The position numbers and the translations under genes were made by a program. The notes under the pieces were generated by a model. It had not been told where the DNA came from. It did no database searches and saw nothing but the letters and a program-made list of their open reading frames with translations. Positions 20,044 to 38,404 of a stretch of 53,642 bases of DNA are shown one piece after another (the first letter of the stretch is position 1; each line of letters starts with the position of its first letter). The DNA lies in IMG/VR virus record IMGVR_UViG_3300037502_003770, positions 1 to 53,642 of that record; one strand, given 5' to 3'. The DNA is from a virus.

Positions 20044-20693
20044 TAAATATAATAGAATTAGATGATATTGTAACAAATACTAGATTCTTTGACGGAACTA
20101 ATGTATTAAAAAAGAGAATCATTCTCTCAGATACATTCTCTTCATCAATAGATGATTATATTAATTACATAAAATTATTTCCAACGTATAGAATACCTAA
20201 TTATATAGTTGGGAAAGACGGAAATATTTATCAGATATTAAAAGATAATAATTATAGTTTATTTATTGATGATTATAATTTTCATGGAAAAGATAAAAAA
20301 TCTCAACAAGAATTTAATTCTCAAAGTATTATTGTTTGTTTAGAAAATAATGGTTATTTATCTAATAGTAATGATTTATATTTAAATCACTTAAACCAAG
20401 AAGTAAACAGGTCTTCTGTAATAGAAAAAAATTTTAGAGGATATATTTATTGGGATAAATACAATGAAATACAGATAGAAAATCTTTTTTTATTATTAGA
20501 TTTTTTATCAGAAAAAACAGGTATTCTAATTAAAAATCCAAAAAATAATTCTTCATTATATGAAGGTTTTTTAAATTATAGTGGTTTATTATTCACTTCA
20601 AATATTAATGATTCATATTTATCACCAAACCCTTCCTTTCCATTTTCATCTTTAAAAGAAAAATTTTCTCCTTTAAAAAAGAAAAGTTTATGA
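20040..20693 (+). CDS. Amidase_2-like protein, apparently lacking zinc ligands
   Basis: The 217 residues follow the order of N-acetylmuramoyl-L-alanine amidase (T7 lysozyme/Amidase_2) blocks. IPNYIVGKDGNIYQIL stands for the usual HF-I-x-x-DG-x-I-Y strand pair. NSQSIIVCLENNGYL stands for the N-x-x-S-I-x-V-x-L-x-x-x-G block, YNEIQIENLFLLLDFL for the Q-x-x-x-L helix, and SPNPSFPFSSLK for the D-P-x-P-x-F-P-W end. The expected ligands are replaced: the first His site reads ILSDTF, the second reads LLFTSNIN, and the Asp/Cys before the final Pro reads Leu-Ser. It is probably a binding or structural protein rather than an active lysin. It is coupled by ATGA to the first array gene. Confidence 0.6.
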   Translation: MINIIELDDIVTNTRFFDGTNVLKKRIILSDTFSSSIDDYINYIKLFPTYRIPNYIVGKDGNIYQILKDNNYSLFIDDYNFHGKDKKSQQEFNSQSIIVCLENNGYLSNSNDLYLNHLNQEVNRSSVIEKNFRGYIYWDKYNEIQIENLFLLLDFLSEKTGILIKNPKNNSSLYEGFLNYSGLLFTSNINDSYLSPNPSFPFSSLKEKFSPLKKKSL

Positions 20694-20887
20694 TAATAAA
20701 AATTAAAATTAACAATATTGAATATACTGAAAATTTAATTAATCTTGAATTATTTTCTATTATTAGAATAAAATATTTATCATTATATTTTAATATTAAA
20801 AAGAAAATTTCTTCTTATTATACTATTCTTAAAGACACAGGTTTTGGTGATTTTGAATTTTATTATAATTTTTCTTATTATAATTAA
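20690..20887 (+). CDS. YxE/FxYYN array protein A1
   Basis: First member of the tiny-gene array, 65 residues. N-terminal strand MIIKIKI, YTE at 12-14, variable middle, and exact FSYYN at the stop. ATGA overlap with the amidase-like gene means the array is read as a continuation of that operon. Function unknown; there is no signal peptide. Confidence 0.7.
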   Translation: MIIKIKINNIEYTENLINLELFSIIRIKYLSLYFNIKKKISSYYTILKDTGFGDFEFYYNFSYYN

Positions 20888-20900
20888 TATAATATAATTT

Positions 20901-21164
20901 ATGTTGTTATGTATTAAATTAAATAATGGTTTTAGATATTTTGAATATTTATATGAAATTTCACAATGTGATAAAATAATATTTGATAATGGAATAATAT
21001 ATTACTTAGAAAGTAAGATAGATTTTTTTAATATAGATAATCGTGAAGCATGTATTCTTTTATCCTTTAAAATAAATACTTTATTTGATTATGATTTTAA
21101 TTATATTGATATATATCAAGAAGAATCTTATGATAGAGAAATTAATTCAATTTATTATAGATAG
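20901..21164 (+). CDS. YxE/FxYYN array protein A2
   Basis: 87 residues, the longest member of block A. It starts MLLCIKL, carries YFE at 13-15 and ends NSIYYR, a degenerate form of the terminal motif. The middle is acidic (YLESKIDFFNIDNREAC). Thirteen bases separate it from A1 and six from A3. Function unknown. Confidence 0.65.
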   Translation: MLLCIKLNNGFRYFEYLYEISQCDKIIFDNGIIYYLESKIDFFNIDNREACILLSFKINTLFDYDFNYIDIYQEESYDREINSIYYR

Positions 21165-21170
21165 TTTATT

Positions 21171-21377
21171 ATGGAAATACAAATTCATTTAAATCTTATT
21201 TCATATATTGAAAAATTATTTTCGGATAAGTTTTTTCACTATAAGAAATATACTTATTGTGAAATTTTTAATATAGATGTTCTATTTGTGGAAATAGATA
21301 ATTTTAACATATATTTTAATTATTTAGATTTTTTATCAGAAAATAAAAAAAAATATTTTAACTACTACAATATATGA
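21171..21377 (+). CDS. YxE/FxYYN array protein A3
   Basis: 68 residues with strand MEIQIHL, YIE at 12-14 and terminal YFNYYNI, one residue past the motif. The tyrosines use TAC codons where other members use TAT, so the motif is kept at protein level. ATGA overlap with A4. Confidence 0.7.
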   Translation: MEIQIHLNLISYIEKLFSDKFFHYKKYTYCEIFNIDVLFVEIDNFNIYFNYLDFLSENKKKYFNYYNI

Positions 21378-21592
21378 ATGAGCTTTCTATCAAAATTGAA
21401 ATCAAATCTTTTGAATATATTGAGTTTATTCAATCAAAAGTTACAATATATTCAAGACACAGTACCAATGAAAAATTTATTTTATTTGGTATGAGATGTA
21501 CTAAATATCTTCCGTTTGCTGCCATTTCGTATTATTTTAATAAAATCGAAATGGAAAATTATTTTTTTAATTATTATAATTACTATTTTTAA
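21374..21592 (+). CDS. YxE/FxYYN array protein A4
   Basis: 72 residues with IKIEIKSFEYIEF at the N terminus (YIE 15-17) and FNYYNYYF at the end. The first 20 residues are almost identical to those of A5 while the middle differs completely, which shows a constant start joined to a variable body. Confidence 0.7.
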   Translation: MNELSIKIEIKSFEYIEFIQSKVTIYSRHSTNEKFILFGMRCTKYLPFAAISYYFNKIEMENYFFNYYNYYF

Positions 21593-21814
21593 ATGAAAAA
21601 TCTTTTTATCAAAATCGAAATCAAATCTTTTAAATATATTGAATTTGTTGATTCTCATCAAGGCGTATATTCAAAACATACAATAAAAGAAAACAATTTT
21701 ATTATATCTTGTTTACCTTTAAGAATATATGACCTCAGATATTATTCATTTATTTCTTATTATTATAATTCTTATGAAAAAATATATTCATTTTTTAAAT
21801 ATTACAGTATATGA
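21593..21814 (+). CDS. YxE/FxYYN array protein A5
   Basis: 73 residues that begin directly after the A4 stop. The N terminus IKIEIKSFKYIEF (YIE 15-17) is nearly the same as A4 at both DNA and protein level, indicating recent duplication. It ends FFKYYSI. ATGA overlap with A6. Confidence 0.7.
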   Translation: MKNLFIKIEIKSFKYIEFVDSHQGVYSKHTIKENNFIISCLPLRIYDLRYYSFISYYYNSYEKIYSFFKYYSI

Positions 21815-22008
21815 AAATAGAAATTAAGATAACAGATATTTTTTCATATAAAGAAATGTTTCTTAGTGATTCATTCATGTCTAGTATATCTTTATATCAA
21901 TTAAAATTTAAACAATTATTTTATGTAGATTTTAATCCTATTTTTTATTGGTGCGCTGATGGTTTTAATAATAAAATAAGAAGGAGGTTTAAATATTATG
22001 GAATTTAG
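21811..22008 (+). CDS. YxE/FxYYN array protein A6
   Basis: 65 residues: MKIEIKI, YKE at 13-15, and RFKYYGI at the end. The codons for three consecutive Arg near the end create an AGGAGG, 12 bases before the ATG of the truncated A7. This is probably coincidental, since neighbours lack such sites. Confidence 0.7.
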   Translation: MKIEIKITDIFSYKEMFLSDSFMSSISLYQLKFKQLFYVDFNPIFYWCADGFNNKIRRRFKYYGI

Positions 22009-22108
22009 TATTTTTATAAAAATTTTTAATTTTGAATATAGTGAACAAATATTAGGTTATTTTCCTATAATAGAATTTATATTAGAATTTACTGTTAACA
22101 AAAGATAA
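21998..22108 (+). pseudogene. YxE/FxYYN array protein A7, 5' fragment cut by the TnpB element
   Basis: 36 codons with a normal family start (MEFSIFIKIF, YSE at 14-16) stop abruptly at TVNKR-TAA next to the hairpin that precedes tnpB. The missing C terminus appears beyond tnpB as VYFPYYYN (about 23474-23500). The fragment overlaps A6 by 11 bases. The element therefore most likely inserted inside an intact array gene. Confidence 0.65.
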
Positions 22109-22149
22109 TAAATTTTATTTAAAATTATGTTAATTTTAAATAAAATTTA
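22109..22149. repeat. 19-bp perfect hairpin, probable left-end structure of the TnpB element
   Basis: Arms 22109-22127 and 22131-22149 are exact reverse complements (TAAATTTTATTTAAAATTA on the left) around the loop TGT. It lies between the truncated array gene and the tnpB promoter candidate. IS200/IS605 elements carry subterminal hairpins, so it may mark the left end. It could instead act as a terminator, although no T-tract follows directly. Confidence 0.55.
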
Positions 22150-22154
22150 ATTCT

Positions 22155-22170
22155 TTTTGACTATTTATAT
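22155..22170 (+). promoter_or_regulatory. Promoter candidate upstream of tnpB
   Basis: Sixteen bases identical to those upstream of the resolvase gene (13046-13061), 39-54 bases before the tnpB ATG. A sigma70-like reading (TTGACT, 17 bases, TAATAT) is also possible at this site only. Confidence 0.45.
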
Positions 22171-22208
22171 CTATAATACTAATATTACTTTATTAAAATT
22201 AATTTTTT

Positions 22209-23447
22209 ATGATTCTTTCTGAAAGACATATAATTTCAAAAAAACATCGATTCTTTAAGGAATGTGATTCTGTTTGTTTAAAAAGTAAGAACCTTTATAA
22301 TTATGCTAATTCTTTAATTGAAAGTCATTTTAATAGTACAGGTAAGTACCTTAATTATAATGGTATTAATAGGATAATGATTGATAGTAATAACCTATTT
22401 TATAGAGATTTACCTGCCAAAGTATCTAACCAAACACTAATGCTTCTTGATAAAAATTGGGTTAATTTTTTTAAGGGTATCAAAGATTGGAAGAAAAACC
22501 CTTCAAAATATAAAGGAAAACCAAATCCTCCCTTAAATAAGGAGAGTAATGAAAGGTTTATCACTATTTACGATTCACAAGCTATAAATAAAAAACTTTT
22601 AAAAAAAGGTGTTCTTAAATTATCTAAGACTAAAATAGAGATAAGTTCTAAAAGAAAGAATGTTAAAGAAATAAGAGTTGTCCCTAAGTTATATTCTTAT
22701 GTGATAGAGATAATATATGAAAGGGAAGAAAAACCAAAATTAGAAGATAATAATAAAATATTTTCTATTGATTTAGGTATAAATAATTTAGCTACAGTTA
22801 CCTCTAACCAAAAAGAAATAACCCCTTTTATAATAAATGGAAAACCTTTAAAAAGTATAAATCAATATTATAATAAGAATCTTTCTTTAATAAAGAAGGA
22901 TTTAAAAAGGAGAAATAACAAAGAGAGTAGTAATAAAGTTAAGAAATTAACATATAAAAGAGAAAATAAAGTAAGAGATTATTTGCATAAAGCAAGTAGG
23001 AAAGTAATAAAATTAGCAAAAGAAAAAGATGTTAACACCATAGTAATAGGGAACAATAAAAATTGGAAACAAAAGACTAATATGAGTTCTAAAAATAATC
23101 AGAACTTCGTTAACATACCTCACAATACATTTATAAAAATGCTTTCTTATAAATGTGAATTAGAAGGGTTAAGGATTATATTACAAGAAGAGAGTTACAC
23201 AAGTCAGGCTTCTTTTTTAAATTTAGATTATATACCTACATACAAACCAAATTGTAAAGAAGAATATTCTTTTAGTGGTTATAGAAAAAGTAGGGGATTA
23301 TATAAAGTTAAAGGAAAAGAGAATAAAATAATAAATGCTGATGTTAACGGTTCTTATAATATATTAAGAAAAGCATTTCCAAATGTATTCACAAATGGAA
23401 TAGAGGGTTTATCAGTGAATCCAATAGTTATAAATGTAGGTAGATAA
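22209..23447 (+). CDS. tnpB: TnpB, RNA-guided nuclease of IS200/IS605 family
   Basis: TnpB proteins are RuvC-type nucleases guided by an RNA from the element's right end, and are ancestors of Cas12. The 412 residues show an N-terminal domain, then the RuvC triad: Asp in FSIDLGINNLATV, Glu in LQEESYTSQASF, and Asp in INADVNGSYNILRK. It belongs to the subtype reading SQASFLNLDYIPTY then FSGYRKSRGLY, which lacks the CxxC zinc finger (a single Cys remains there). All three catalytic acids are present, so it may be active. The guide RNA would span its 3' end and the roughly 50 bases before the next gene. Confidence 0.9.
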   Translation: MILSERHIISKKHRFFKECDSVCLKSKNLYNYANSLIESHFNSTGKYLNYNGINRIMIDSNNLFYRDLPAKVSNQTLMLLDKNWVNFFKGIKDWKKNPSKYKGKPNPPLNKESNERFITIYDSQAINKKLLKKGVLKLSKTKIEISSKRKNVKEIRVVPKLYSYVIEIIYEREEKPKLEDNNKIFSIDLGINNLATVTSNQKEITPFIINGKPLKSINQYYNKNLSLIKKDLKRRNNKESSNKVKKLTYKRENKVRDYLHKASRKVIKLAKEKDVNTIVIGNNKNWKQKTNMSSKNNQNFVNIPHNTFIKMLSYKCELEGLRIILQEESYTSQASFLNLDYIPTYKPNCKEEYSFSGYRKSRGLYKVKGKENKIINADVNGSYNILRKAFPNVFTNGIEGLSVNPIVINVGR

Positions 23448-23453
23448 TATTTA

Positions 23454-23500
23454 CATGATTTACCATAAAAACAATACTGTATATTTTCCTTATTATTATA
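23454..23500 (+). pseudogene. 3' remnant of split array gene A7
   Basis: In one frame this gap reads MIYHKNNTVYFPYYYN, which ends in the family-type F-x-Y-Y-x-N signature just before the ATG of A8. It has no room for an N-terminal part of its own. It is best explained as the tail of the gene whose head ends at 22108. The right junction with the TnpB element lies at or shortly before 23470. Confidence 0.5.
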
Positions 23501-23725
23501 ATGAACGATTTTAGAATAAATATCTTTCTTGAAGAAAGTAATTTTCAATATATTGAAAATCATCGTATGTCTATTTGTTGTTTAATATTTTATTATAATT
23601 CTGATAAATATGATGGTTTATATTTAGAAAATTATATGAAAAATAATATGTTTACATGTAACAAATCATCTTTAACTAAAAAAGGAGTATTTCATACAGA
23701 AAATAAATATTATAGGGTTAATTAA
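23501..23725 (+). CDS. YxE/FxYYN array protein A8
   Basis: 74 residues: MNDFRINIFLEESNFQYIEN with YIE at 17-19, a Cys-containing middle (ICCLIFYYN), and ENKYYRVN at the end, a drifted terminal motif. First intact member after the TnpB insertion. Function unknown. Confidence 0.65.
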   Translation: MNDFRINIFLEESNFQYIENHRMSICCLIFYYNSDKYDGLYLENYMKNNMFTCNKSSLTKKGVFHTENKYYRVN

Positions 23726-23728
23726 ACT

Positions 23729-23926
23729 ATGAATATTCAGATTTATATCAATACATATTATACAATATATAAAGAACGAGGTGATTATAATTATAATGAA
23801 GTTTTATCTCAAATTAGAATAAAAATATTTATTATATATTGTTCTTGTAATAATTATTCTATAAATACAAGTAGAATAGTTAATAATAGTACCAAGAAAA
23901 TTATTGCTTTTAAATACTACCACTAA
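23729..23926 (+). CDS. YxE/FxYYN array protein A9
   Basis: 65 residues: MNIQIYI, YKE at 14-16, ending AFKYYH. Its last 17 bases overlap the 3' end of the convergent gp25-like gene, so block A abuts the baseplate module with no spacer. Confidence 0.65.
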   Translation: MNIQIYINTYYTIYKERGDYNYNEVLSQIRIKIFIIYCSCNNYSINTSRIVNNSTKKIIAFKYYH

Positions 23927-24293
23927 AACTTAAAGAAAGCTCATCTATTTCTTTAGTAGATTTATATTGAAAAATTATATTTATTATAAGTCTACTTTCT
24001 ACCTGTTCATTAGTTATTGATAAAATAGTTAATTCTGGAATAAATTTTTCACTTTTTACTTTAATTTCTTGTTTGATTGTATCAAATGAAATATTATCAT
24101 TTTGTTCAAAAAGCATATATTTTAAACGAGTACCATAATCTCTTCTATAATATCTTGTACCTTCATCTGTAGTTAATAAAAGAAATAACTTACTTTTTAA
24201 TTGTTCTTTTGTTGTAAGATTTACTTTTAATGTAGATGAAATATTATCATCTTCTACAGGATATGATAAAGAGAATGTTTTATTTACTGCCAT
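23910..24293 (-). CDS. Baseplate wedge protein, T4 gp25/GPW family
   Basis: 127 residues with the gp25 signature: LFLLLTTDEGTRYYRRDYGT followed by RLKYMLFEQND, matching the L-x-T-x-x-G-E-R-x-x-x-P-x-Y-G-x-x-L pattern. The family forms part of the inner baseplate wedge of contractile tails. It is transcribed leftward, divergent from the gp6-like gene, from a symmetric promoter region. Start chosen at MAVNKTFSL, 30 bases from the CTATTTA motif. Confidence 0.88.
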   Translation of the reverse strand: MAVNKTFSLSYPVEDDNISSTLKVNLTTKEQLKSKLFLLLTTDEGTRYYRRDYGTRLKYMLFEQNDNISFDTIKQEIKVKSEKFIPELTILSITNEQVESRLIINIIFQYKSTKEIDELSLSFSGSI

Positions 24294-24306
24294 TATATTT
24301 TTTTAT

Positions 24307-24323
24307 CTATTTATATTAAATAG
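24307..24323. promoter_or_regulatory. Symmetric divergent promoter candidate
   Basis: CTATTTA-TAT-TAAATAG is a perfect palindrome with a three-base centre. It lies between the divergent gp25-like and gp6-like genes, with the heptamer 30-31 bases from each start codon. Both genes are late in T4, so this is a good late-promoter candidate. Confidence 0.55.
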
Positions 24324-24337
24324 TTACTTATTAAATA

Positions 24338-26161
24338 ATGGCAACAACATTCGATTATTCAAGAAAAAGTTTTACTGAAATAAGACAACTTCTTTTAAAT
24401 TATATAAAAGACACTTATCCTGAAATATATAATGATTTTAATCAAGATTCATCTATTAATTCAGTATTGCTTGAATTAGTGGCTGCATTAGGTGATAATT
24501 TATATTATGCAATAGATAGAAGTGCAAATGAAGTTTTTGTTGAACAAGCACAAACAAGGAAAGCTTTATTCAACTTATCAAAAACTCTTGGGTCAAAGAT
24601 TCCGAATATAAAACCTTCTATTACTGTTTGTGAATTTACAGTATCAGTTCCAGCAAATGGTGATACTTTTTCTACCGAATATTTACCGATTATAAAATAT
24701 GATACCACAATAGAGAGTAATGGTATTACATTTCAACCTGTAGGTGATATAGATTTTTCAAGTAATTTATCATTTTTTGGAACAAATAATAGAAAAATTC
24801 TACCTAGAATAGAAAATGGTCAAGTAATTGATTATCAAATTACAAAAACTGAAATGGTTATTAGTTCATCAATTAGAACTTTTACTCAAACAGTAAGAGA
24901 AGATAATATACAACCATTTTTAAAATTAACTTTACCTGAAACAAATATTGTTGATATATTAGCTGTTATTGTAAAACCTAATATCAATAATACTTCTTTA
25001 CCTACGGAACAAGATTATATTAATGAAGATTATTTATTTTATGAAGTAGATTATTTAGCTGAGAATCAGGTTTTTGTTGAAAATACTAATTTTAGAGAAG
25101 AAGAAATTAAATCAGGGTATTGGAAAAATATAACTAAAAAGTTTATTAAAGAATTTGATGAAAACGGATTTTGTTCAATTACATTTGGCGGAGGTAACGG
25201 TGATTTAAATTATTTAACAAATAGTTTAAAAAATATTAATGGTTTTGATAAAACTAAACAATATTTGTATAATACAGCTCTTGGTGAAATACCAAATATA
25301 AATTCAACAATTTATATTAAATATAGAATAGGTGGTGGAAAACAAGCAAACGTTTCAGCAAATTCTATAAGAACAGTTGTAAATAATAATATGTTTGTTA
25401 ACGGTACAAACCCTGTTATAAATCAAAGAGTAATTAATAGTTTAAGAGTAAATAATACAATACCTGCTTTTGGTGGTAGAGATAGTCTATCTAATGAAGA
25501 AATTAGAAATTTTATAAAGTATAATTTTTCTGAAAATGGAACTTGTTTAACTACCTCTGATTATATGTTGAGACTTCAAAAAATGGAGGGTAAATATGGT
25601 TTACCTTTCAGGACAACAGTTTTTGAAGAAAATAATAAGATTATAATAAGTATTTTAGGTATTGATAGTAATAACAAACTTGATAATCAATCTACTTCTA
25701 TTTTAAAAGAAAATATTTCAGAATATTTATCAAAATTTAGACCAATGAATGATTACGTAGAAGTTAGAGATGGTCAAATTATTAATCTAGCTTATGATTT
25801 TACTTTATTGATTGATAATAGGTCAAATCCAACAGAAATATTACCACAAGTAATACTTGCAGTAAATGAATTTCATGATATAAATAATAATTTCATGGAT
25901 GATGATTTATTCTTAGGTAATCTAATAGAAAAAATAAATAATATTAACGGAGTATTAAATATTAATTCATATGTTGTTTATAATAAAGTAAATGGTCAAT
26001 ATTCAATAAATACTATAAATATGCCTTTAACTAAAGTAGATGATAGTACTTTTAAAATTGATGTACAACAATCAGTTTTATTATCTTCTAAAGATGCTAT
26101 GTTTGAGGTTAAGTTTCCTGAAAAAGATATAAGAATTAATTTTAAAAGAATTACAATTTAA
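24338..26161 (+). CDS. Baseplate wedge protein, gp6/Baseplate_J-like
   Basis: 607 residues. The N terminus FTEIRQLLLNYIKDTYPEIY then DSSINSVLLELVAALGDNL, with Tyr and Ala-rich helices and QTRKALFNLSKTLG, is characteristic of gp6/J-like wedge proteins. The middle is beta-rich (FNITFGGGNGDLNY-type segments). A later part, FRTTVFEENNKIIISILGID, also fits. It should form the wedge dimer that links tube-side and sheath-side parts of the baseplate. It pairs with the divergent gp25-like gene. Confidence 0.85.
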   Translation: MATTFDYSRKSFTEIRQLLLNYIKDTYPEIYNDFNQDSSINSVLLELVAALGDNLYYAIDRSANEVFVEQAQTRKALFNLSKTLGSKIPNIKPSITVCEFTVSVPANGDTFSTEYLPIIKYDTTIESNGITFQPVGDIDFSSNLSFFGTNNRKILPRIENGQVIDYQITKTEMVISSSIRTFTQTVREDNIQPFLKLTLPETNIVDILAVIVKPNINNTSLPTEQDYINEDYLFYEVDYLAENQVFVENTNFREEEIKSGYWKNITKKFIKEFDENGFCSITFGGGNGDLNYLTNSLKNINGFDKTKQYLYNTALGEIPNINSTIYIKYRIGGGKQANVSANSIRTVVNNNMFVNGTNPVINQRVINSLRVNNTIPAFGGRDSLSNEEIRNFIKYNFSENGTCLTTSDYMLRLQKMEGKYGLPFRTTVFEENNKIIISILGIDSNNKLDNQSTSILKENISEYLSKFRPMNDYVEVRDGQIINLAYDFTLLIDNRSNPTEILPQVILAVNEFHDINNNFMDDDLFLGNLIEKINNINGVLNINSYVVYNKVNGQYSINTINMPLTKVDDSTFKIDVQQSVLLSSKDAMFEVKFPEKDIRINFKRITI

Positions 26162-26164
26162 AAA

Positions 26165-27817: not shown

Positions 27818-27829
27818 ACATCTTTTAAT

Positions 27830-29069: not shown

Positions 29070-29252
29070 ATGGTTATATTTATTAGTTGCGCTAGTGCAA
29101 GATATGTAGAAAAATTTTATAATAGAAGTTTATTTTCTGAATTATTTTTAACTAAAATATATATTATATTTTATTGTAACCTTTCTTTAAAATCAAAACT
29201 TATTTCTTTTAAAGAAAGACCTGAAAAAGAATATTTTTCTTATTATAATTAA
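29070..29252 (+). CDS. YxE/FxYYN array protein B1
   Basis: 60 residues: MVIFISC, YVE at 12-14, ending in the exact YFSYYN. First member of block B, two bases after the membrane-anchored protein gene. Function unknown. Confidence 0.7.
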   Translation: MVIFISCASARYVEKFYNRSLFSELFLTKIYIIFYCNLSLKSKLISFKERPEKEYFSYYN

Positions 29253-29258
29253 ACTTTT

Positions 29259-29486
29259 ATGAAAATAAACTTAATTTTAAAAGATTGTGATTATAGAGAA
29301 TATTTTGAGTATGTTGGTGAAAAATTATGTTTTATTGTATGTCATATTATTTACTACGATATTATATTATTTAATCAAATTCAAATAGGTTTAAATTATC
29401 TTATTAATTTAAATATATTTGAATGTTATGACCAATATCGATTTAAAACAAATAGATTTAAACAAGATGTTTATGATTATTATTAA
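29259..29486 (+). CDS. YxE/FxYYN array protein B2
   Basis: 75 residues: MKINLILKDCDYREYFEY with YRE at 12-14 and VYDYY at the end, lacking the final Asn. The leader before it (taaacttttatg) is the same as that before B3, showing that the junctions are duplicated with the genes. Confidence 0.7.
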   Translation: MKINLILKDCDYREYFEYVGEKLCFIVCHIIYYDIILFNQIQIGLNYLINLNIFECYDQYRFKTNRFKQDVYDYY

Positions 29487-29492
29487 ACTTTT

Positions 29493-29717
29493 ATGAAATA
29501 TCTTATTTTTATAGAAATAAACAATTTTAAGTATTTTGAACATATTACGCATGATAATATTTTTTCTGAAATAGTTATTAATATTACACGTTTTACTCAA
29601 AAAGTAGATATGTTTGTTACAGATATGAATTTTATTGAGACATTTACATCTTATAAATGTTCTTTTTATTTTAATGATTATGAATATAAATTTTTTGATT
29701 ATTATAATGATAACTAA
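29493..29717 (+). CDS. YxE/FxYYN array protein B3
   Basis: 74 residues: MKYLIFIEI, YFE at 14-16, ending FFDYYNDN with two residues past the motif. Spacing to B2 is six bases. Function unknown. Confidence 0.7.
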   Translation: MKYLIFIEINNFKYFEHITHDNIFSEIVINITRFTQKVDMFVTDMNFIETFTSYKCSFYFNDYEYKFFDYYNDN

Positions 29718-29721
29718 TATT

Positions 29722-29976
29722 ATGGTAGATTATGAAAAGTTAGTGATAAAAATTCAAATTAATTATTTTAGATATATTGAAATGTATTTTGAATCTTCAG
29801 AAAATATAGGTTCTATGTTTGAATGGTTATATGGTATAAAATTAAGAATCGTTGCAATTTTAAGTAATAATTATTCAAATTCTTACATTGTAGATTATAA
29901 AACATATATGGCAACATATTTTGGTTATTATAACATGAAGTACTCAAAATTAACTAAAATAAAAACAGTAATTTAA
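29722..29976 (+). CDS. YxE/FxYYN array protein B4 with tail extension
   Basis: Start placed at the ATG at 29722 (MVDYEKLVIKIQINYFRYIE), because earlier codons run through B3 in another frame and lack the family start. 84 residues; YIE at 18-20. The terminal motif YFGYYN is followed by 13 extra residues (MKYSKLTKIKTVI), so the stop codon lies beyond the usual point. B8 has a similar basic tail. Confidence 0.68.
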   Translation: MVDYEKLVIKIQINYFRYIEMYFESSENIGSMFEWLYGIKLRIVAILSNNYSNSYIVDYKTYMATYFGYYNMKYSKLTKIKTVI

Positions 29977-29978
29977 TT

Positions 29979-30197
29979 ATGAATATATTTATAAGTCCAC
30001 AAGAAAATAAATATTATACTGAATTTAATTCTGACAATGAATTCGCTTATCAAATAAGATATTATGATATAAATTTAATTTATACAAGAGAAGATTTTGA
30101 TTTAAAGAAAAATAATAATTATAAAAATAGTATTATGAAAATTTTAGATAATGATGATATTTGGAATTATGAATATTTTGATTATTATAATAAATAA
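29979..30197 (+). CDS. YxE/FxYYN array protein B5
   Basis: 72 residues: MNIFISPQENKYYTEFN with YTE at 13-15, a charged middle (YTREDFDLKKNNN) and YFDYYNK at the end. Two bases after B4. Function unknown. Confidence 0.7.
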   Translation: MNIFISPQENKYYTEFNSDNEFAYQIRYYDINLIYTREDFDLKKNNNYKNSIMKILDNDDIWNYEYFDYYNK

Positions 30198-30213
30198 AAT
30201 TATGTTTTAGATT

Positions 30214-30405
30214 ATGAGAATAAATTTAACTTTAAAAAATGGTATTTTATATAATGAATTTTTATATTATGGGCAATATTATTTTCAAATAACGAAGTTA
30301 CACACTATACATATAGTCGAAAATTTTATTTTTACCAAATATAGTTTTTTTTCGTATGTTATTGAAAGTGGTATTAAACCTAAGAATTTTATATATTATA
30401 GTTAA
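30214..30405 (+). CDS. YxE/FxYYN array protein B6
   Basis: 63 residues: MRINLTLKNGILYNEFLYYG with YNE at 13-15, ending NFIYYS. Sixteen bases from B5. Function unknown. Confidence 0.68.
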   Translation: MRINLTLKNGILYNEFLYYGQYYFQITKLHTIHIVENFIFTKYSFFSYVIESGIKPKNFIYYS

Positions 30406-30407
30406 CA

Positions 30408-30608
30408 ATGGAAATAGAAATTAAACTCGAAATATTATTTTATTATGAAAATTATCAAATTGCTAAGGAAAATTATATTTTTAATAAAATCGTATTTAAA
30501 AATTCTGTTATAAATTTTTGTTTAGATAAAAAAATATATTCTAATAAAGTTATTACAAATGGTTGGCATAGTAAAATACTTGAATTTAAATATTACGTTA
30601 TGAAATAA
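30408..30608 (+). CDS. YxE/FxYYN array protein B7
   Basis: 66 residues: MEIEIKLEILFYYENYQ with Y-Y-E at 12-14, ending EFKYYVMK. Two bases after B6. Function unknown. Confidence 0.68.
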   Translation: MEIEIKLEILFYYENYQIAKENYIFNKIVFKNSVINFCLDKKIYSNKVITNGWHSKILEFKYYVMK

Positions 30609-30614
30609 TTAAAC

Positions 30615-30845
30615 ATGGAAGATTTTATCAGAATAGATTTGTATAATTTTTATTATGCTGAAGGTAGGATTAAACATAATAAAAATATATTATACGTTGA
30701 AATAGGTTTTACACAAATAAGAATTATATTCTCAATATCTATATCATATAATATAATACAAGTTTCAAATGTTATTAGTGATGATGGGAAAAGAATGAAT
30801 TTAAAATATTATAATAATGGCTATAAAAAATTAACCAAAACATGA
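30615..30845 (+). CDS. YxE/FxYYN array protein B8 with tail extension
   Basis: 76 residues: MEDFIRIDLYNFYYAEGR with YAE at 14-16. LKYYN is followed by NGYKKLTKT, a basic tail similar to that of B4 (KLTK shared). ATGA overlap with B9. Confidence 0.68.
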   Translation: MEDFIRIDLYNFYYAEGRIKHNKNILYVEIGFTQIRIIFSISISYNIIQVSNVISDDGKRMNLKYYNNGYKKLTKT

Positions 30846-31057
30846 GAATAGATATTATTTTTGATGATTATGATGAATATAGTGAATTTTATTCTAATAT
30901 ATTTTCTATGAAAAGACAAACTTTTTGCTTTAAAATAATTTATGATTTAGGTACTGTTCTTAACGCTGTTTTTGAATATTTTAGTTTAGATATTAAAATA
31001 CAAAACTATAAAAAAACCTTTTTATACGATAAAACATTATTTTCTTACTACAATTAA
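30842..31057 (+). CDS. YxE/FxYYN array protein B9
   Basis: 71 residues: MRIDIIFDDYDEYSEFYS with YSE at 13-15, ending LFSYYN with TAC codons for both tyrosines. Last gene of block B; it faces the minus-strand sigma operon across a terminator. Confidence 0.7.
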   Translation: MRIDIIFDDYDEYSEFYSNIFSMKRQTFCFKIIYDLGTVLNAVFEYFSLDIKIQNYKKTFLYDKTLFSYYN

Positions 31058-31064
31058 AATAAAA

Positions 31065-31092
31065 AAATTCCATTCTAAAAAGAAAGGAATTT
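31065..31092. terminator. Terminator between convergent operons
   Basis: AAATTCC-A-TTCT / AGAA-A-GGAATTT forms an 11-bp stem with one A-A mismatch and an AAAA loop. On the minus strand it is followed by seven T (31061-31067 reversed), so it terminates the sigma/glycosyltransferase operon well. On the plus strand the T-run is poor, so it is a weaker stop for block B. Confidence 0.75.
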
Positions 31093-31112
31093 AAAATATA
31101 CAAATAAAACAA

Positions 31113-31928: not shown

Positions 31929-31950
31929 TTTTTATTTGTTTAACATAAAA

Positions 31951-32799: not shown

Positions 32800-32804
32800 T
32801 TTTA

Positions 32805-33896: not shown

Positions 33897-33945
33897 ATTT
33901 ATTAATATTTTGTTGTTTATTATTAAGAGTAAAAAAACTAATAAA

Positions 33946-34176
33946 ATGGGAAGTTTCTTAAAAATTAGTCTTCTTTTTGAAAATAATTTATTTTATAGAG
34001 AATTTTATGATTCTGATATAAATAAAAGATACTTTCAAGTTGATTTACCTTTTGGTATTACTTTTATCATTAGTGATAATTGTCTAAATATAGAACATTT
34101 TCCTTTACGAATAAATAATATTCCAAAAATATATTTTGATTTTTATTATTATATTAGATATAAATCTTTTCGATAA
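33946..34176 (+). CDS. YxE/FxYYN array protein C1
   Basis: Start chosen at the ATG at 33946 (MGSFLKISLLFENNLFYREF) instead of a TTG at 33910. 76 residues; YRE at 17-19. The end is degenerate (YFDFYYYIRYKSFR). First gene of block C, divergent from the glycosyltransferase operon. Confidence 0.65.
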   Translation: MGSFLKISLLFENNLFYREFYDSDINKRYFQVDLPFGITFIISDNCLNIEHFPLRINNIPKIYFDFYYYIRYKSFR

Positions 34177-34186
34177 AAAAATATTT

Positions 34187-34375
34187 ATGAAAATAATTAT
34201 TCACCTTAGAACAGATGTTTCTTATGAAGAAATATATTACAGTACAAATTTATTCTATTCTTACGTGAATATAGTAAATTTATGTATAAAGTTTTGTACA
34301 AATCTACTTTCTGGGGAAAACTATTCATATATTTTTGATTCAGGTTATAGAAAATATTTTTCTTATTATAATTAA
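34187..34375 (+). CDS. YxE/FxYYN array protein C2
   Basis: Start placed at the ATG at 34187 (MKIIIHLRTDVSYEEIYY), the family-type start. 62 residues with YEE at 13-15 and exact YFSYYN at the stop. Confidence 0.7.
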   Translation: MKIIIHLRTDVSYEEIYYSTNLFYSYVNIVNLCIKFCTNLLSGENYSYIFDSGYRKYFSYYN

Positions 34376-34381
34376 AAACTT

Positions 34382-34582
34382 ATGGAAATATTTATTTATT
34401 TTGATTTTATCTGTTATAAAGAATCTTATTATGATGATAACTTTATAACGGCTGTTATTACTACTATTTTTGGAATAAAACGTCATGAAGAAATTATTAG
34501 ATTATATAAAGATTATTTATATAATCGTCATGTTTATCAAAACAGTAAATTTTCTAAGATAAAATTTTATTGCAGTCCTTAA
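34382..34582 (+). CDS. YxE/FxYYN array protein C3
   Basis: 66 residues: MEIFIYFDFICYKESYY with YKE at 12-14. The end reads KIKFYCSP, a drifted motif. Six bases after C2. Confidence 0.66.
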   Translation: MEIFIYFDFICYKESYYDDNFITAVITTIFGIKRHEEIIRLYKDYLYNRHVYQNSKFSKIKFYCSP

Positions 34583-34584
34583 TT

Positions 34585-34815
34585 ATGAGAATAGGTATTT
34601 TATTAAAAGATATAGATTATTTTGAAAGATATATAAACATCACATCAGAAATATATTTTAAAATAAACTTTAATCAAACTAAAATTTGGTATAGATTTAC
34701 AAGTGAAATATTTAAGATTGATTTATATTATGATTACTATTGTTCTGTAATAATAAAAAACCAAAGAAACATGTTTTATTCTTCTGATTATTATAACTTT
34801 TCACCAAATTATTAA
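34585..34815 (+). CDS. YxE/FxYYN array protein C4
   Basis: Start at the ATG at 34585 (MRIGILLKDIDYFERYI), preferred over a TTG further upstream. 76 residues; YFE at 12-14; DYYNFSPNY at the end, six residues past the motif. Confidence 0.68.
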   Translation: MRIGILLKDIDYFERYINITSEIYFKINFNQTKIWYRFTSEIFKIDLYYDYYCSVIIKNQRNMFYSSDYYNFSPNY

Positions 34816-34816
34816 A

Positions 34817-35020
34817 ATGTTAAAAATAGAAATTTATTTATTATATAATGTTCTCACATATATAGAAGAATTTTTTGATGTGTTTTCAACGGAGTTTAAT
34901 AAAATTTTAAATTCAGTTGAATCAAATTTATCAATTAAATCATATAACACAAAATTTTATTATTATGATTGTTTAAATTTAATCACATCTTATTTTTCAC
35001 GTAAAAACAAATATTATTAA
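34817..35020 (+). CDS. YxE/FxYYN array protein C5
   Basis: 67 residues: MLKIEIYLLYNVLTYIEEFF with YIE at 15-17. The end YFSRKNKYY has the Tyr pair displaced from the Phe. One base after C4. Confidence 0.65.
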   Translation: MLKIEIYLLYNVLTYIEEFFDVFSTEFNKILNSVESNLSIKSYNTKFYYYDCLNLITSYFSRKNKYY

Positions 35021-35024
35021 AATA

Positions 35025-35258
35025 ATGGGTATAGAAATAAAAATATTTCTTGAAAATAATACTTCTTATGAAGAAAATATGCTTTTTGATTATATGAATT
35101 CCGCATTAATTATTAAAAATGTTACTTCGTATTTTATGCTTGTTTTTGGAAATGTTACTGTTAATTATTTACATAATAAGACCATTTGTTATATAATAAA
35201 TACAGACTTTAATGGTCGTGTTGATGCTAAACATTTCTCATATTATAATAATGTTTAA
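35025..35258 (+). CDS. YxE/FxYYN array protein C6
   Basis: 77 residues: MGIEIKIFLENNTSYEENML with YEE at 15-17, ending HFSYYNNV. Four bases after C5. Confidence 0.7.
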   Translation: MGIEIKIFLENNTSYEENMLFDYMNSALIIKNVTSYFMLVFGNVTVNYLHNKTICYIINTDFNGRVDAKHFSYYNNV

Positions 35259-35261
35259 ATA

Positions 35262-35465
35262 ATGAAAATATTTATAGTGTTAATGAATGTTCAATATCTC
35301 GAACAAAATTATTTAACTTTTCCTAATGAAATATTTGTACTTTTAATATTAGATTCGCTTAAATTATCTATTGAATTTGATTTCATTAATTCTGAAGATA
35401 TATTTAGAAACTATAATTATAGATTACCTTCACATATTCAAATTTCTGATTTTATCTTTTATTAA
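35262..35465 (+). CDS. YxE/FxYYN array protein C7
   Basis: 67 residues: MKIFIVLMNVQYLEQNYL with YLE at 12-14, ending SDFIFY, a shortened motif. Three bases after C6. Confidence 0.66.
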   Translation: MKIFIVLMNVQYLEQNYLTFPNEIFVLLILDSLKLSIEFDFINSEDIFRNYNYRLPSHIQISDFIFY

Positions 35466-35479
35466 AGTTAATTATTATT

Positions 35480-35701
35480 ATGGTAAATAAAAATACTAAA
35501 ATTGAAATATGTATTTGGTTAGATAGTAATGATTCTTATGTAGAACAGGTTTATAAATATAGCATGTTTTTAACAAGTATAATATTTTATTGTAATATTG
35601 ACCTTTATATTAGAAGTGATTTTAGTTATGAACATAATAGAATTTTTCATAAAATTTATTCTTTCAATAAAGAGATTGATTATATATTTTATAAATGGTA
35701 A
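35480..35701 (+). CDS. YxE/FxYYN array protein C8
   Basis: 73 residues with a seven-residue extension before the strand (MVNKNTKIEICIWL). YVE at 20-22, ending DYIFYKW. Fourteen bases after C7. Confidence 0.66.
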   Translation: MVNKNTKIEICIWLDSNDSYVEQVYKYSMFLTSIIFYCNIDLYIRSDFSYEHNRIFHKIYSFNKEIDYIFYKW

Positions 35702-35705
35702 CTTT

Positions 35706-35903
35706 ATGAAAATAATTATAAAATTTGGTCCTTTTGTTTATTCTGAAATTTATTACATCATGTTAAAAATTATTGAGGTTGATTTAGTAATAAAAAATCT
35801 TTTCACAAACAATAAATATATTTGTTTTGATTTTAAGGTTAATGAAAAAAATACTAGTCAACATATACTCTCATCTATTGTCAAGTTTAAATATTATTCA
35901 TAA
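35706..35903 (+). CDS. YxE/FxYYN array protein C9
   Basis: Start at the ATG at 35706 (MKIIIKFGPFVYSEIYY). 65 residues; YSE at 12-14; ends KFKYYS. Shares one base with C10 (TAATG). Confidence 0.7.
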   Translation: MKIIIKFGPFVYSEIYYIMLKIIEVDLVIKNLFTNNKYICFDFKVNEKNTSQHILSSIVKFKYYS

Positions 35904-36091
35904 TGGAAATTTTAATTATAAATGAATATTTTTCTTATCAAGAAGATTTTAATCCTAAACTCAGTAAAAGATATTCTAGTTGTTTTATGTTTAGAATATT
36001 TCATTTATTTGAAGATATAACTTTTTTTTATAGAAATAAATATATTGCAACTTATAAAACTTTTAAATATTATGTTTATAAAAATTTTTAA
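35903..36091 (+). CDS. YxE/FxYYN array protein C10
   Basis: 62 residues: MEILIINEYFSYQEDFN with YQE at 12-14. TFKYYVYKNF at the end overlaps the start of C11 by 20 bases. Confidence 0.68.
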   Translation: MEILIINEYFSYQEDFNPKLSKRYSSCFMFRIFHLFEDITFFYRNKYIATYKTFKYYVYKNF

Positions 36092-36305
36092 TAATAATAT
36101 AAAATTTTGTTATGTTGAAAGATTAAATAATTATAATAATTATAATTTTTATTATAATTTACATCTTGGTAATTATAATGAAGTAGTAGATTATTTATTA
36201 AATAAAAAAACTATATCTTATTATGACGCTTTAAATAATTTAAAACATATAAAACTTCAGTATTATAATTTAACTTATTATGATAAAAATTTTGTCTATG
36301 GATAG
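36072..36305 (+). CDS. YxE/FxYYN array protein C11
   Basis: Start at the ATG at 36072 (MFIKIFNNNIKFCYVERLN), the family-type start, overlapping C10. 77 residues, very rich in Asn and Tyr (NNYNNYNFYYN). YVE at 14-16; the end YYDKNFVYG is divergent. Confidence 0.62.
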   Translation: MFIKIFNNNIKFCYVERLNNYNNYNFYYNLHLGNYNEVVDYLLNKKTISYYDALNNLKHIKLQYYNLTYYDKNFVYG

Positions 36306-36537
36306 ATATTTAAAAATAGAAATACATTTAGAAGGTTATGATTCACGTTATCAAGAAAAGTATTACCTACATAATAAAAGTTTAATTACCGAACTTTATT
36401 TAGGTGTTAATAAAAAACTTTTATTTATTGAGTGTTTATATTATCTTAAAAATATAATCAGTTTTAAAACAGACATTTTATACAAAACTGGTAAAGGTTA
36501 TATAAAAAATTTCAAATATTACTTATATGAAAAATAA
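36298..36537 (+). CDS. YxE/FxYYN array protein C12
   Basis: Start at the ATG at 36298 (MDRYLKIEIHLEGYDSRYQE). 79 residues; YQE at 18-20; NFKYYLYEK at the end. Its last 11 bases overlap the methylase start, so methylase translation is probably coupled to the array. Confidence 0.7.
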   Translation: MDRYLKIEIHLEGYDSRYQEKYYLHNKSLITELYLGVNKKLLFIECLYYLKNIISFKTDILYKTGKGYIKNFKYYLYEK

Positions 36538-37387
36538 ATACAATAAATCACCTATGAATTATATAGGTGCAAAAACAAAACTTCTACCTCAAATATTACC
36601 TTTGTTTCCTAGTAAAATAAACAATTTTGTAGATTTATTTTGTGGTGGTTGTACTATCGGTATTAATTTACAAAACGCTAAGAATCATTACTATAATGAT
36701 TCTTTTTCTCAAATAATAGAAATATATAAAAGTTTAACAAGTTTTGAAATAGATTATATTTTAGAATATATAGATTCTAAAATTAAAGAATATAATTTAA
36801 CTATTCTTAATAAAGATGAATTTTATATTTTTCGTGATTATTATAATTCACAAGAAAATAAAAATCCTTTAGATTTATTTATATTACTTGCTTTTAGTTT
36901 TAATCATGATTTAAGATTCAATTCTGAAGGTGTTTTTAACCAAACTTTTGGTTATAAAAAATCCCATTATAACCCTGTAATGAAAAATAATTTAATTGAA
37001 TTTCATAAACAGTTTAAAGAAAGAAATCCTACCTTTTCAAATAAAGAATTTACTAAATTTGATTTTTCTTTTTTAAAAGAAGGTGATTTCGTTTACTGCG
37101 ACCCACCTTATTTAATAACAAACGCTAATTATAATAAATCTTGGGCATCTCAAGATGAAATGAATCTTTTAACATTATTAAAAGATTTAGATAATAGAAA
37201 TATCAAAGTTGCTTTATCAAATGTAATTGAACATAAAGGAAGAAGTAATGATTTCCTTAAAAAATTTATTGGTGATAATGAAAATTTTAAAGTTCATTAT
37301 TTAGATAAGAATTATGATTATTCAAATTTTGGTAGCAAAGATTTGGATAAAGGTAAAACAGTTGAAGTTTTAATAACAAACTATTAA
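36527..37387 (+). CDS. D12-class DNA adenine-N6 methyltransferase (Dam-like)
   Basis: 286 residues with the D12-class order: N-terminal NYIGAKTKLLPQILPLFP, AdoMet motif FVDLFCGGCTIG, and catalytic DPPY in VYCDPPYLITNANYNKSW. This class methylates adenine in short sites such as GATC. In a phage it can protect DNA from host restriction or mark DNA for packaging. The recognition region in the middle is not close enough to predict the site. Sandwiched between array blocks C and D with overlap on the left. Confidence 0.92.
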   Translation: MKNKYNKSPMNYIGAKTKLLPQILPLFPSKINNFVDLFCGGCTIGINLQNAKNHYYNDSFSQIIEIYKSLTSFEIDYILEYIDSKIKEYNLTILNKDEFYIFRDYYNSQENKNPLDLFILLAFSFNHDLRFNSEGVFNQTFGYKKSHYNPVMKNNLIEFHKQFKERNPTFSNKEFTKFDFSFLKEGDFVYCDPPYLITNANYNKSWASQDEMNLLTLLKDLDNRNIKVALSNVIEHKGRSNDFLKKFIGDNENFKVHYLDKNYDYSNFGSKDLDKGKTVEVLITNY

Positions 37388-37394
37388 AGTAATT

Positions 37395-37880
37395 ATGATA
37401 AATGATATTCAAATAAAGACTGATTTCTATTATTATAGGGAGGTTTCTTCACGTTTTAATTTCTTTAATATGTATTTTTATGATTTTAATGTAGTGCCTT
37501 CAACATATAAGAAGTTATTAAATAATATTAGAAATATTAAATCAAAGTATTTTATTTCAATGTTTAAATTTATATCAGAACATGCGAATAAGACTCATAT
37601 AATTAGTGATATATATAACTTTCTTTTAAATAAAGAAATCATTGAAATATTAATAAAAAATAACCAAGTTTTATATGTAGAAAATATTCCATTACCTTTA
37701 AATACAAATAAATATATTTCCCCTTTCCATATAGCTGATGAAGATAAAAGTATTACAGATGAATTTTATCTATATGCTGTAAAATATGTACTAAAAAATC
37801 ATTATGTTTTTGATGACAATTATTTTTTACTGATACCTGAAAAATTTATAAAAGATATAATAAATGAAAATTATAATTGA
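37395..37880 (+). CDS. Long protein with array-type N terminus (D1)
   Basis: 161 residues. The start MINDIQIKTDFYYYREVSS matches the array family (Ile strand, YRE at 14-16). The protein then continues well beyond family length with helical segments (NFLLNKEIIEILIKNNQ) and ends INENYN. It may be a fusion of an array N terminus to another domain, or the similarity may be limited. It overlaps the next gene by 17 bases. Confidence 0.58.
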   Translation: MINDIQIKTDFYYYREVSSRFNFFNMYFYDFNVVPSTYKKLLNNIRNIKSKYFISMFKFISEHANKTHIISDIYNFLLNKEIIEILIKNNQVLYVENIPLPLNTNKYISPFHIADEDKSITDEFYLYAVKYVLKNHYVFDDNYFLLIPEKFIKDIINENYN

Positions 37881-38220
37881 TTTAGAAAATGTTATATATC
37901 GCTATTTTGGTAAAAATAGTACTTTTTATTCACATGAACCTTTTGAAAGAATATTATTTTTATTAGATAATAGTAATGATAAGTTAATATCTATTTTTGA
38001 AAATTTATATACTAATAATATATCTTTAACTATAATATTTAAAACCTATGATTGTATTTTAGTTTTCAATAATGAAAAAAATACTATTAATCCTAGAATA
38101 ATAAGACAAAAAAGGTTTTCTTTAGAAAAAATAAAACATATTCATAAAAATAATTTAAAATCAAGAATTTTTCATTATTCACATACATCATTATATTCAT
38201 TAGTAAGTATTCGTTTATAA
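37864..38220 (+). CDS. Divergent array-like protein (D2)
   Basis: 118 residues. The start MKIIIDLENVIYRYFG fits the array strand, but Tyr replaces Glu in the Y-x-E position (YRY at 12-14). The C terminus is basic and lacks the YYN motif (YSLVSIRL). It is probably a diverged member. It overlaps D1 and is followed by the tiny D3 gene. Confidence 0.55.
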   Translation: MKIIIDLENVIYRYFGKNSTFYSHEPFERILFLLDNSNDKLISIFENLYTNNISLTIIFKTYDCILVFNNEKNTINPRIIRQKRFSLEKIKHIHKNNLKSRIFHYSHTSLYSLVSIRL

Positions 38221-38233
38221 ATTTTAAATAAAT

Positions 38234-38404
38234 ATGATAAAAATCATTATAGTAAATGAAAATTTTAGGTACTATGAAAGTAGTAGTATAACAACTATTA
38301 CTTTAAAGAAGATAAACTTTACAATTGAAGTATCAAATCAAAATTATTTCACTTTATTTTTAACAAAAAATAATAAAAAATTAGATTATTATTATGGAAC
38401 ATAA
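38234..38404 (+). CDS. YxE/FxYYN array protein D3 (56 aa)
   Basis: An ATG at 38234 opens 56 codons: MIKIIIVNENFRYYESSS with Y-Y-E at 13-15, ending LDYYYGT. It fits the array family in start, motif and size. Its 3' end overlaps the next gene by 11 bases, filling what would otherwise be a 170-base gap. Last recognisable member. Confidence 0.62.
   Translation: MIKIIIVNENFRYYESSSITTITLKKINFTIEVSNQNYFTLFLTKNNKKLDYYYGT

Follow-up and report, generated by a model that had tools for sequence, protein, structure and literature searches.

The viral record IMGVR_UViG_3300037502_003770 of IMG/VR comprises 312,694 bp, and its bases 1-53,642, which form one end of the record and are here called the window, contain four plus-strand blocks of small genes (20690-23926, 29070-31057, 33946-36537 and 37395-38404). 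The 33 open reading frames (ORFs) of these blocks are all where they had been placed by a sequence-only reading of this DNA, which described an arrayed family of tiny proteins with constant ends and variable middles. This observation is confirmed, and the phenomenon is larger than stated: about 100 genes of this one giant T4-like phage genome share a short N-terminal element with a consensus of roughly M-x-I-x-I-...-[FI]-x-Y-x-E. Most of these genes encode 56-100 amino acids (aa), many of the products end near [FL]-K-Y-Y, and the genes are arranged head-to-tail in runs of up to 12, with many 4-base overlaps. About a third of the members found lie in the window.

In the window, 30 of the 33 ORFs have the proposed length of 56-88 aa, and all 33 display hydrophobic-x-hydrophobic at residues 2-11, which by this weak criterion agrees with the proposed alternating N-terminal strand. 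Y-x-E occurs within the first 28 residues of 32 ORFs, with the Tyr at residue 10-20 (300 shuffles: mean 5.8, maximum 13). Tyr-Tyr is found in the last 12 residues of 26 ORFs (300 shuffles: mean 4.7, maximum 12) and F-x-Y-Y in those of 18 (shuffle mean 0.35, maximum 3), 14 of the 18 having it at most three residues from the stop; the statement that most members end in F-x-Y-Y is therefore literally true for about half of them, and for about four fifths if relaxed to Tyr-Tyr. Among the 59 other window ORFs of at least 45 aa, Y-x-E and Tyr-Tyr occur in two each and F-x-Y-Y in none. The gaps between genes keep to the proposed upper bound of +16 bases, with an exception where a tnpB gene lies, and the overlaps, described before as ATGA or TAATG, reach -20; in the genome-wide set, the most frequent kind of junction is an overlap of exactly 4 bases (17 of 75). 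The make-up of the blocks required three corrections, as member 7 is truncated, the tnpB gene lies within block 1, and member 32 lacks Y-x-E (Table 1).

The proposal that these genes form one family was borne out for most of them by leave-one-out profile hidden Markov models (HMMs) of 32 ORFs, the truncated member 7 being excluded. Against a background of 78 other window ORFs and 960 shuffled members, 25 of 32 scored above the best of the 78 ORFs and the 99th percentile of the shuffles, and 18 above the best shuffle. The seven that were missed include both long ORFs of block 4, with scores below zero. Links across blocks are seen with blastp when the database consists of the 33 sequences alone (member 3 with member 20 at an expectation value (E) of 2e-7, member 5 with member 12 at 1.3e-8).

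Table 1. Genes of the four window blocks (HMM, leave-one-out profile hidden Markov model; nt, nucleotides).
Feature	Position	Strand	Remarks
Member 1	20690..20887	+	65 aa; Y-x-E, F-x-Y-Y-N; recovered by HMM
Member 2	20901..21164	+	87 aa; Y-x-E, C-terminal YY; missed by HMM, 3.9 bits
Member 3	21171..21377	+	68 aa; recovered by HMM
Member 4	21374..21592	+	72 aa; paralogue of member 5, 44% identity, blastp E 1.7e-16; first 65 nt 83% identical
Member 5	21593..21814	+	73 aa; recovered by HMM
Member 6	21811..22008	+	65 aa; recovered by HMM
Member 7	21998..22108	+	36 aa, N-terminal part only, Y-x-E; tnpB next, YYYN-type tail beyond tnpB
TnpB, IS605-type, non-member inside block 1	22209..23447	+	PF01385, PF07282, phrog_506
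Member 8	23501..23725	+	74 aa; Y-x-E; missed by HMM, 2.3 bits
Member 9	23729..23926	+	65 aa; recovered by HMM
Member 10	29070..29252	+	60 aa; confident structure model
Member 11	29259..29486	+	75 aa; recovered by HMM
Member 12	29493..29717	+	74 aa; second structure model, weak
Member 13	29722..29976	+	84 aa; recovered by HMM
Member 14	29979..30197	+	72 aa; Y-x-E, YYN; missed by HMM, 3.1 bits
Member 15	30214..30405	+	63 aa; recovered by HMM
Member 16	30408..30608	+	66 aa; recovered by HMM
Member 17	30615..30845	+	76 aa; top HMM score, 27.2 bits
Member 18	30842..31057	+	71 aa; recovered by HMM
Member 19	33946..34176	+	76 aa; HMM 7.9 bits, barely over best other ORF
Member 20	34187..34375	+	62 aa; recovered by HMM
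Member 21	34382..34582	+	66 aa; recovered by HMM
Member 22	34585..34815	+	76 aa; recovered by HMM
Member 23	34817..35020	+	67 aa; missed by HMM, 4.9 bits
Member 24	35025..35258	+	77 aa; recovered by HMM
Member 25	35262..35465	+	67 aa; recovered by HMM
Member 26	35480..35701	+	73 aa; recovered by HMM
Member 27	35706..35903	+	65 aa; recovered by HMM
Member 28	35903..36091	+	62 aa; recovered by HMM
Member 29	36072..36305	+	77 aa; near miss by HMM, 7.0 vs 7.3 bits
Member 30	36298..36537	+	79 aa; recovered by HMM
Member 31	37395..37880	+	long, 161 aa; N-terminal element only, Y-x-E; missed by HMM; no Pfam match
Member 32, doubtful	37864..38220	+	118 aa; without Y-x-E; missed by HMM
Member 33	38234..38404	+	56 aa; recovered by HMM

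Outside the window, weak matches to the first HMM were seen at 254-257 kb (E 6e-4 and 8e-4) and at 74-75 kb (E 0.04 and 0.7) of the record; these stretches proved to be further arrays, one of about 20 genes and one of about 18, and a second HMM indicated more. A protein pattern (Met, two spaced residues of the Ile/Val/Leu type, and Y-x-E within 26 residues) yielded 111 matches in 11 loci. Nine of them (13070-, 42425, 69747-, 78374, 86891-, 92848, 102189, 110366 and 205092-) were removed by hand, being lone ORFs, shadow ORFs or starts that fall inside a methylase gene or TnpB-like genes. The remaining 102 members comprise 77 of at most 100 aa and 25 longer ones. The pattern fits 111 of the 296 ORFs in the phage's own loci. 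In relatives, for which two sets of 80 loci were used, it fits 109 of 2960 ORFs in one set and 35 of 1841 in the other. The rate in the relatives (1.9-3.7% of ORFs) corresponds to about 6-11 chance matches among 296, perhaps more given the AT-richer DNA, so that the 102 may include a few spurious members, and members defined by position that lack the exact pattern are missed by this count; the number of members is best read as about 100. With a DNA pattern, the whole record (0.31 Mb) gave 94 matches, compared with 35 for the reversed control. The record is possibly incomplete, and roughly half of it was read only by pattern and HMM; the loci for gene-level study were picked for having pattern matches, and their densities are not genome averages.

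Both TAT and TAC are used at the conserved Tyr residues, which indicates that the conservation is at the protein level, as the sequence-only reading had argued: TAC accounts for 24 of 112 codons of the Tyr pair, compared with 95 of 954 at other positions of these proteins, and for 8 of 111 codons of the Tyr in Y-x-E (all pattern matches). We also considered the tail as a promoter, as the Tyr-Tyr-Asn codons contain TATAAT, and ruled this out by the frequency of TAC at the Tyr pair, which is, if anything, enriched.

The capsid, prohead protease and baseplate genes of the record are T4-type. The octamer ACTATTTA precedes seven of the nine virion genes read; before the capsid, scaffold, protease and other genes it stands at a distance of 22-40 bases. 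Among 121 other ORFs of at least 100 aa, 20 have it in the 60 bases upstream (150 permuted octamers: median 1, maximum 6), which makes it a candidate, and likely, late promoter of this phage. It is found upstream of none of the 102 family members (with one start per gene, 18 of 121 other ORFs vs 0 of 102 members) and within 300 bases of none of the 27 run starts. Occurrences near virion and packaging genes include 203251, 201738 and 199850 (all +) of the record and 10503 (+) and 24324 (-) of the window; all five tnpB or TnpB-like genes in or beside arrays also carry the octamer upstream. A second motif, TTTAAC-N13..23-TATAA, occurs 19 times in intergenic DNA compared with 5 for the reversed control (overall 33 vs 16), for example at 118211-118242 and 119367-119398 of the record and 50477-50508 of the window, and may be regarded as a candidate early promoter. 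Seven of the 27 runs have this motif as their nearest promoter and no gene on the opposite strand in the interval. The T4-late (TATAAATA), TATAAT and TTGACA motifs are not enriched upstream of array runs. As judged by these motifs, with terminators left out of account, the arrays would be expressed early or in the middle phase.

Ungapped profiles anchored on the Glu of Y-x-E were compared with a 99% null for a short group (n = 67) and a long group (n = 32), three short members at 208-209 kb belonging to neither. The Tyr, the Glu and two hydrophobic positions are part of the search pattern and are conserved by construction, so the argument rests on the unselected columns. In the short group, columns -12 and -7 to -3 exceed the null, and after the Glu only +5, slightly; in the long group, -12, -8 to -3, -1 and +16 exceed it, with +15 at the limit. 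Nearly all columns after the Glu are thus at background in both groups. A gapped alignment of 20 longer members reveals a nearly invariant Asn 18 residues past the Glu, which suggests that the domain continues with variable spacing. At the other end, 51 of the 67 short members have Tyr-Tyr among their last 15 residues (shuffle mean 12.7, maximum 19), with Phe or Leu two residues back in 32 of the 51 and Lys one back in 27; by eye, the longer group is mostly without this C-terminal motif.

It is unlikely, in our opinion, that the element is a sorting tag comparable to the capsid targeting sequence of T4, in which case the proteins would be packed into the head, cut after the Glu by the prohead protease and injected. 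The cleavage consensus of the T4 protease is [LI]-x-E. The phage does possess a gp21-type prohead protease (Peptidase_S77, PF03420, at 199979-200467, Pfam E 1.7e-28) and a gp23-family capsid gene (203488-205011), the identical element stands on different bodies, and the ungapped profile is almost all background past the Glu in both groups. According to two papers, T4 propeptides have 10-19 residues and are cut after Glu, and the residue two before the Glu differs in giant phages, S/A-x-E in phiKZ and A-x-E in SPN3US, so a Tyr in this place is not impossible (PMC9026906, PMC5694885). However, the presumed cut site of the capsid protein in this lineage, itself deduced, is [IL]-x-E in 81 of 81 sequences, compared with Y-x-E in 32 of the 33 window members, and for this reason we do not file the family with the T4 internal proteins. 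The proposed tag is further weakened by the predicted position of Y-x-E within a strand (see below), by the conservation past the Glu in the gapped alignment, and by the missing late motif upstream of the members. A further point, that two head-region proteins of the phage itself start with MRKLTLLE-A and MKKLLTE-A, is weak, as the listed protease relatives lack such a start.

A model of member 10 was calculated with AlphaFold2 from an alignment with 18 paralogues (mean predicted local distance difference test score, pLDDT, of 74.7; by tens of residues 91, 90, 89, 79, then 48 and 51). It has strands at residues 2-6, 10-17, 20-27 and 30-37, so that residues 1 to about 37 are predicted to form a four-stranded antiparallel beta-meander, presumably followed by a flexible stretch and a C-terminal aromatic tail that the model leaves unplaced. 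The model of member 12 with 28 paralogues is weak and mainly beta (mean pLDDT 63.6). Both members modelled are all-beta, with confidence for one of them, and this answers in part the structural check suggested by the sequence-only reading. That reading had also guessed that the proteins are subunits that assemble through their end strands and show different bodies; the strands would then pair between molecules into a lattice or filament. The conserved parts are indeed strand-like and aromatic, and a tail unplaced on the monomer model is what pairing in trans would predict; however, the shallow alignment accounts for the unplaced tail equally well, the C-terminal motif is mostly missing from the longer group, and the missing late motif makes a structural role less likely still. 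We regard such assembly as improbable.

The longer relatives may carry the same N-terminal module ahead of other bodies, some with DUF4116 repeats. Among eight tagged long proteins, DUF4116-like repeats behind the element were found above the Pfam cut-off in one and below it in four, with no match in three. Unlike DUF4116 proteins proper, however, none of the 68 members scanned matches PF13475 at E<=0.01. For DUF4116 itself, one published contact-based model is an alpha-solenoid and conflicts with a homology model (PMC8078820). Another N-terminal element (approximately IDLxSLNxFLLEKGD, without the Y-x-E module) is present in the window at 6449-7915 (-) and 10001-10522 (+) and in the record at 197267-198058 and 198048-198659; the two window proteins have DUF4116 matches.

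Adjacent members resemble each other beyond chance (67 pairs, mean score 41.1; permutation mean 23.8 and maximum 31.0 in 2000 permutations), which suggests that tandem duplication is a main route of expansion. In the three most similar pairs of members, the proportion of differing nonsynonymous sites (pN) is 0.21-0.32 at a synonymous proportion (pS) of 0.28-0.41, and in three TnpB-like copies of the same genome pN is 0.07-0.08 at pS 0.26-0.33. The ratio of nonsynonymous to synonymous substitution rates (dN/dS), pooled over 29 independent pairs, was calculated for three parts of the proteins: the first 20 codons gave 0.64, the middle 0.83 and the last nine codons 0.42. Saturation inflates these values, but their order fits fixed ends and a free middle. 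Besides the tnpB gene of block 1, a second one (PF01385) lies in or beside arrays at 62727-63953 of the record, together with TnpB-like genes at 69747-71072, 76259-77581 and 86891-88219, which are 88-89% identical in DNA and have no Pfam match, only sub-threshold TnpB-related or RuvC-like ones (one of them, searched against PDB sequences, gave none). Four more PF01385 matches, at 142.7, 196.3, 217.0 and 299.8 kb, are distant from known arrays. In a frame-broken member at 76044-76260, adjoined by a TnpB-like gene, the N-terminal part and the LKLKYYI tail are in different frames; together with the tnpB gene inside block 1, this suggests that single members are dispensable. A diversity-generating retroelement as the source of variation was rejected, as no reverse transcriptase (PF00078) was found in the record, which may be incomplete.

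These data could also be explained by proliferation with little function, in which tolerated small genes duplicate and drift under weak selection for solubility and translational coupling. Broken members, inserted transposon genes, the high dN/dS and the occurrence of the family in one lineage only (by searches of limited sensitivity) would all be expected. On the other hand, the N-terminal element and the C-terminal pair are kept at the protein level across about 100 highly diverged genes, and dN/dS is lowest, 0.42, precisely at the C-terminal codons, which leaves this explanation rather unlikely.

Searches with 68 members against Pfam, PHROG, NCBIfam and PADLOC found no consistent family (at most one member per family, best E 0.0041, chance level). 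The model of member 10 has no match in PDB or BFVD at Foldseek E<=0.001 (the lowest values were 0.39 and 0.058, and VIA Z did not exceed 4.6), only generic meanders such as fatty-acid-binding proteins, Pur-alpha and lectins, none of them significant, and a sequence search against PDB chains gave no matches. The earlier statement that no named family has this signature therefore stands for the libraries searched. A tblastn search of a phage library with member 12 and one long member found nothing at E<=1, and full-text literature searches, with most subscription journals and preprints outside their scope, gave nothing relevant on phage small-protein arrays or family expansion among the papers listed.

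The closest capsid relatives in viral contigs reach 51% identity (80 kept among the matches listed), and five of the largest capsid-relative records have the baseplate wedge gene at 32-41% identity. We compared 18 related records (3.1 Mb: 14 capsid relatives, one baseplate relative and three named phages), in which the DNA pattern gave 140 scattered matches compared with 97 for the reversed control (G001: 20 vs 18). The HMM found nothing at E<=1 in five related records; its sensitivity is moderate, as in its own record it gave 34 matches (32 at E<=1), and this by construction, being built from 68 own proteins. A stricter tag pattern, devised after the members were seen, fits 25 of 323 own ORFs; the related DNA studied (2.35 Mb, 5354 ORFs) contains no ORF that fits it. 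Tag scans of viral contigs gave no match and one inside a larger unrelated ORF; a scan of genome contigs gave seven single matches, no ORF of at least 45 aa there carrying the element; and a degenerate scan gave 240 stretches, none confirmed, these three patterns fitting only 3, 5 and 12 of the 102 own members. The family was thus not seen in phages with related capsid and baseplate genes, within the limited sensitivity of the searches and with near-identical records possibly outside the set, and it may well exist in close kin.

Tandem duplication, a fast-changing middle, tolerated losses, one lineage and no late motif are together most like a host-directed repertoire, and less like components of the virion. 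We therefore propose, with a probability of roughly 0.4, that the family is an early-expressed birth-and-death repertoire of host-directed proteins, acting in counter-defence or takeover, on one small scaffold. The constant ends would stabilize a single, inexpensive beta scaffold or attach it to a common partner, and the quick-changing middle would supply the part that binds different host targets. Tandem duplication would create new members, and old ones could decay or take transposons at little cost. The diversified anti-defence repertoire guessed by the sequence-only reading is thereby partly supported, through tandem duplication, rapid protein divergence and the absent late motif; from these we infer a host-directed function.

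Several results weigh against this proposal. None of the members looks like any known anti-defence protein; with PADLOC, whose entries are defence and not counter-defence proteins, there were two chance-level matches among 68 members. Some relatives exceed their pattern control, the largest cases being 12 vs 4 (twice) and 13 vs 5. Of the two structure models only one is confident, and the C-terminal third of that model is not. Seven of the 20 genes with the late octamer are those that define it, and five of the 20 are tnpB or TnpB-like. For 6 of 27 runs the early-like motif is nearest but separated by an opposite-strand gene. Three runs have the late octamer as their nearest motif: block 1 (7.6 kb away) and the run at 23501 behind tnpB (1.3 kb away) without a gene on the other strand in the interval, and block 2 with one. 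A further 11 runs have neither motif in the DNA examined. The pooled dN/dS of 0.72 (29 pairs) is inflated, synonymous sites in AT-rich DNA being probably near saturation, and is no demonstration of positive selection. A proliferating family under relaxed selection would give a similar picture.

Block 1 comes after genes for an amidase and for a DNA polymerase of family B, and an SNF2-type helicase gene precedes the array at 254-260 kb. The gp25 homologue of the window has a PHROG match and is slightly below the Pfam cut-off; it is divergent from the gp6 homologue (23910-24338), whereas in relatives G001 and G013 the two are adjacent on the same strand, so the boundary of block 1 coincides with a rearrangement. 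The baseplate wedge protein has 25-26% identity to those of a Microcystis phage, Flavobacterium phages and an uncultured 484-kb phage. The window also encodes a nicotinamide phosphoribosyltransferase (1243-2700) and a ribose-phosphate pyrophosphokinase-type protein (4431-5402); phage genes that restore nicotinamide adenine dinucleotide are known to counter defence systems that deplete it. In one array locus (L031), genes for an ATP-binding cassette (ABC) permease and ATPase (3399-4211 and 5372-6163) have members between and around them, and an R2K-clade ATP-grasp gene (L032, 9619-10401, -) sits in the 254-260 kb array. Such genes would suit precursor peptides, with the N terminus as leader for a modifying enzyme and the remainder as variable core. 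However, the arrays read contain a single ATP-grasp gene of this kind (no record-wide search for others was made), the bodies are long and strand-rich, and the ABC permease matches the binding-protein-dependent, import-type family, which renders this explanation highly improbable.

The nearest functional comparison is with the internal proteins of T4; at the sequence level, the two were compared by way of the family libraries. Like IPI-IPIII, the family is small in protein size and sequence-divergent, with a common short N-terminal segment that ends in Glu, and IPI counters a host restriction enzyme (PMC9026906). Unlike them, the present family has Y-x-E, no late motif, about 100 genes rather than three, and an extra C-terminal motif. 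Another comparison is with the expanded multigene families of giant viruses, which have many copies per genome with a common N-terminal domain and variable C-terminal bodies. Those families use known eukaryotic-type domains, whereas the family described here, from a tailed phage, uses a beta module that has no name. It is tantalizing, though doubtful, to go further and consider the family a diversification scaffold of the phage's own making, a tiny beta domain copied about 100 times, its ends fixed and its middles free, as an early, standing library of host-protein binders, some with solenoid-like extensions.

Some 9% of the record, about 29 kb, is devoted to one unnamed family. If this is not a repertoire, it is still an unexplained case of gene-family growth in a tailed phage. 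If it serves counter-defence or takeover, it would offer about 100 natural variants of one scaffold with which to study the evolution of new inhibitors in phages, and a diversification scaffold, if true, would be the phage equivalent of the effector families that giant viruses and pathogens possess.

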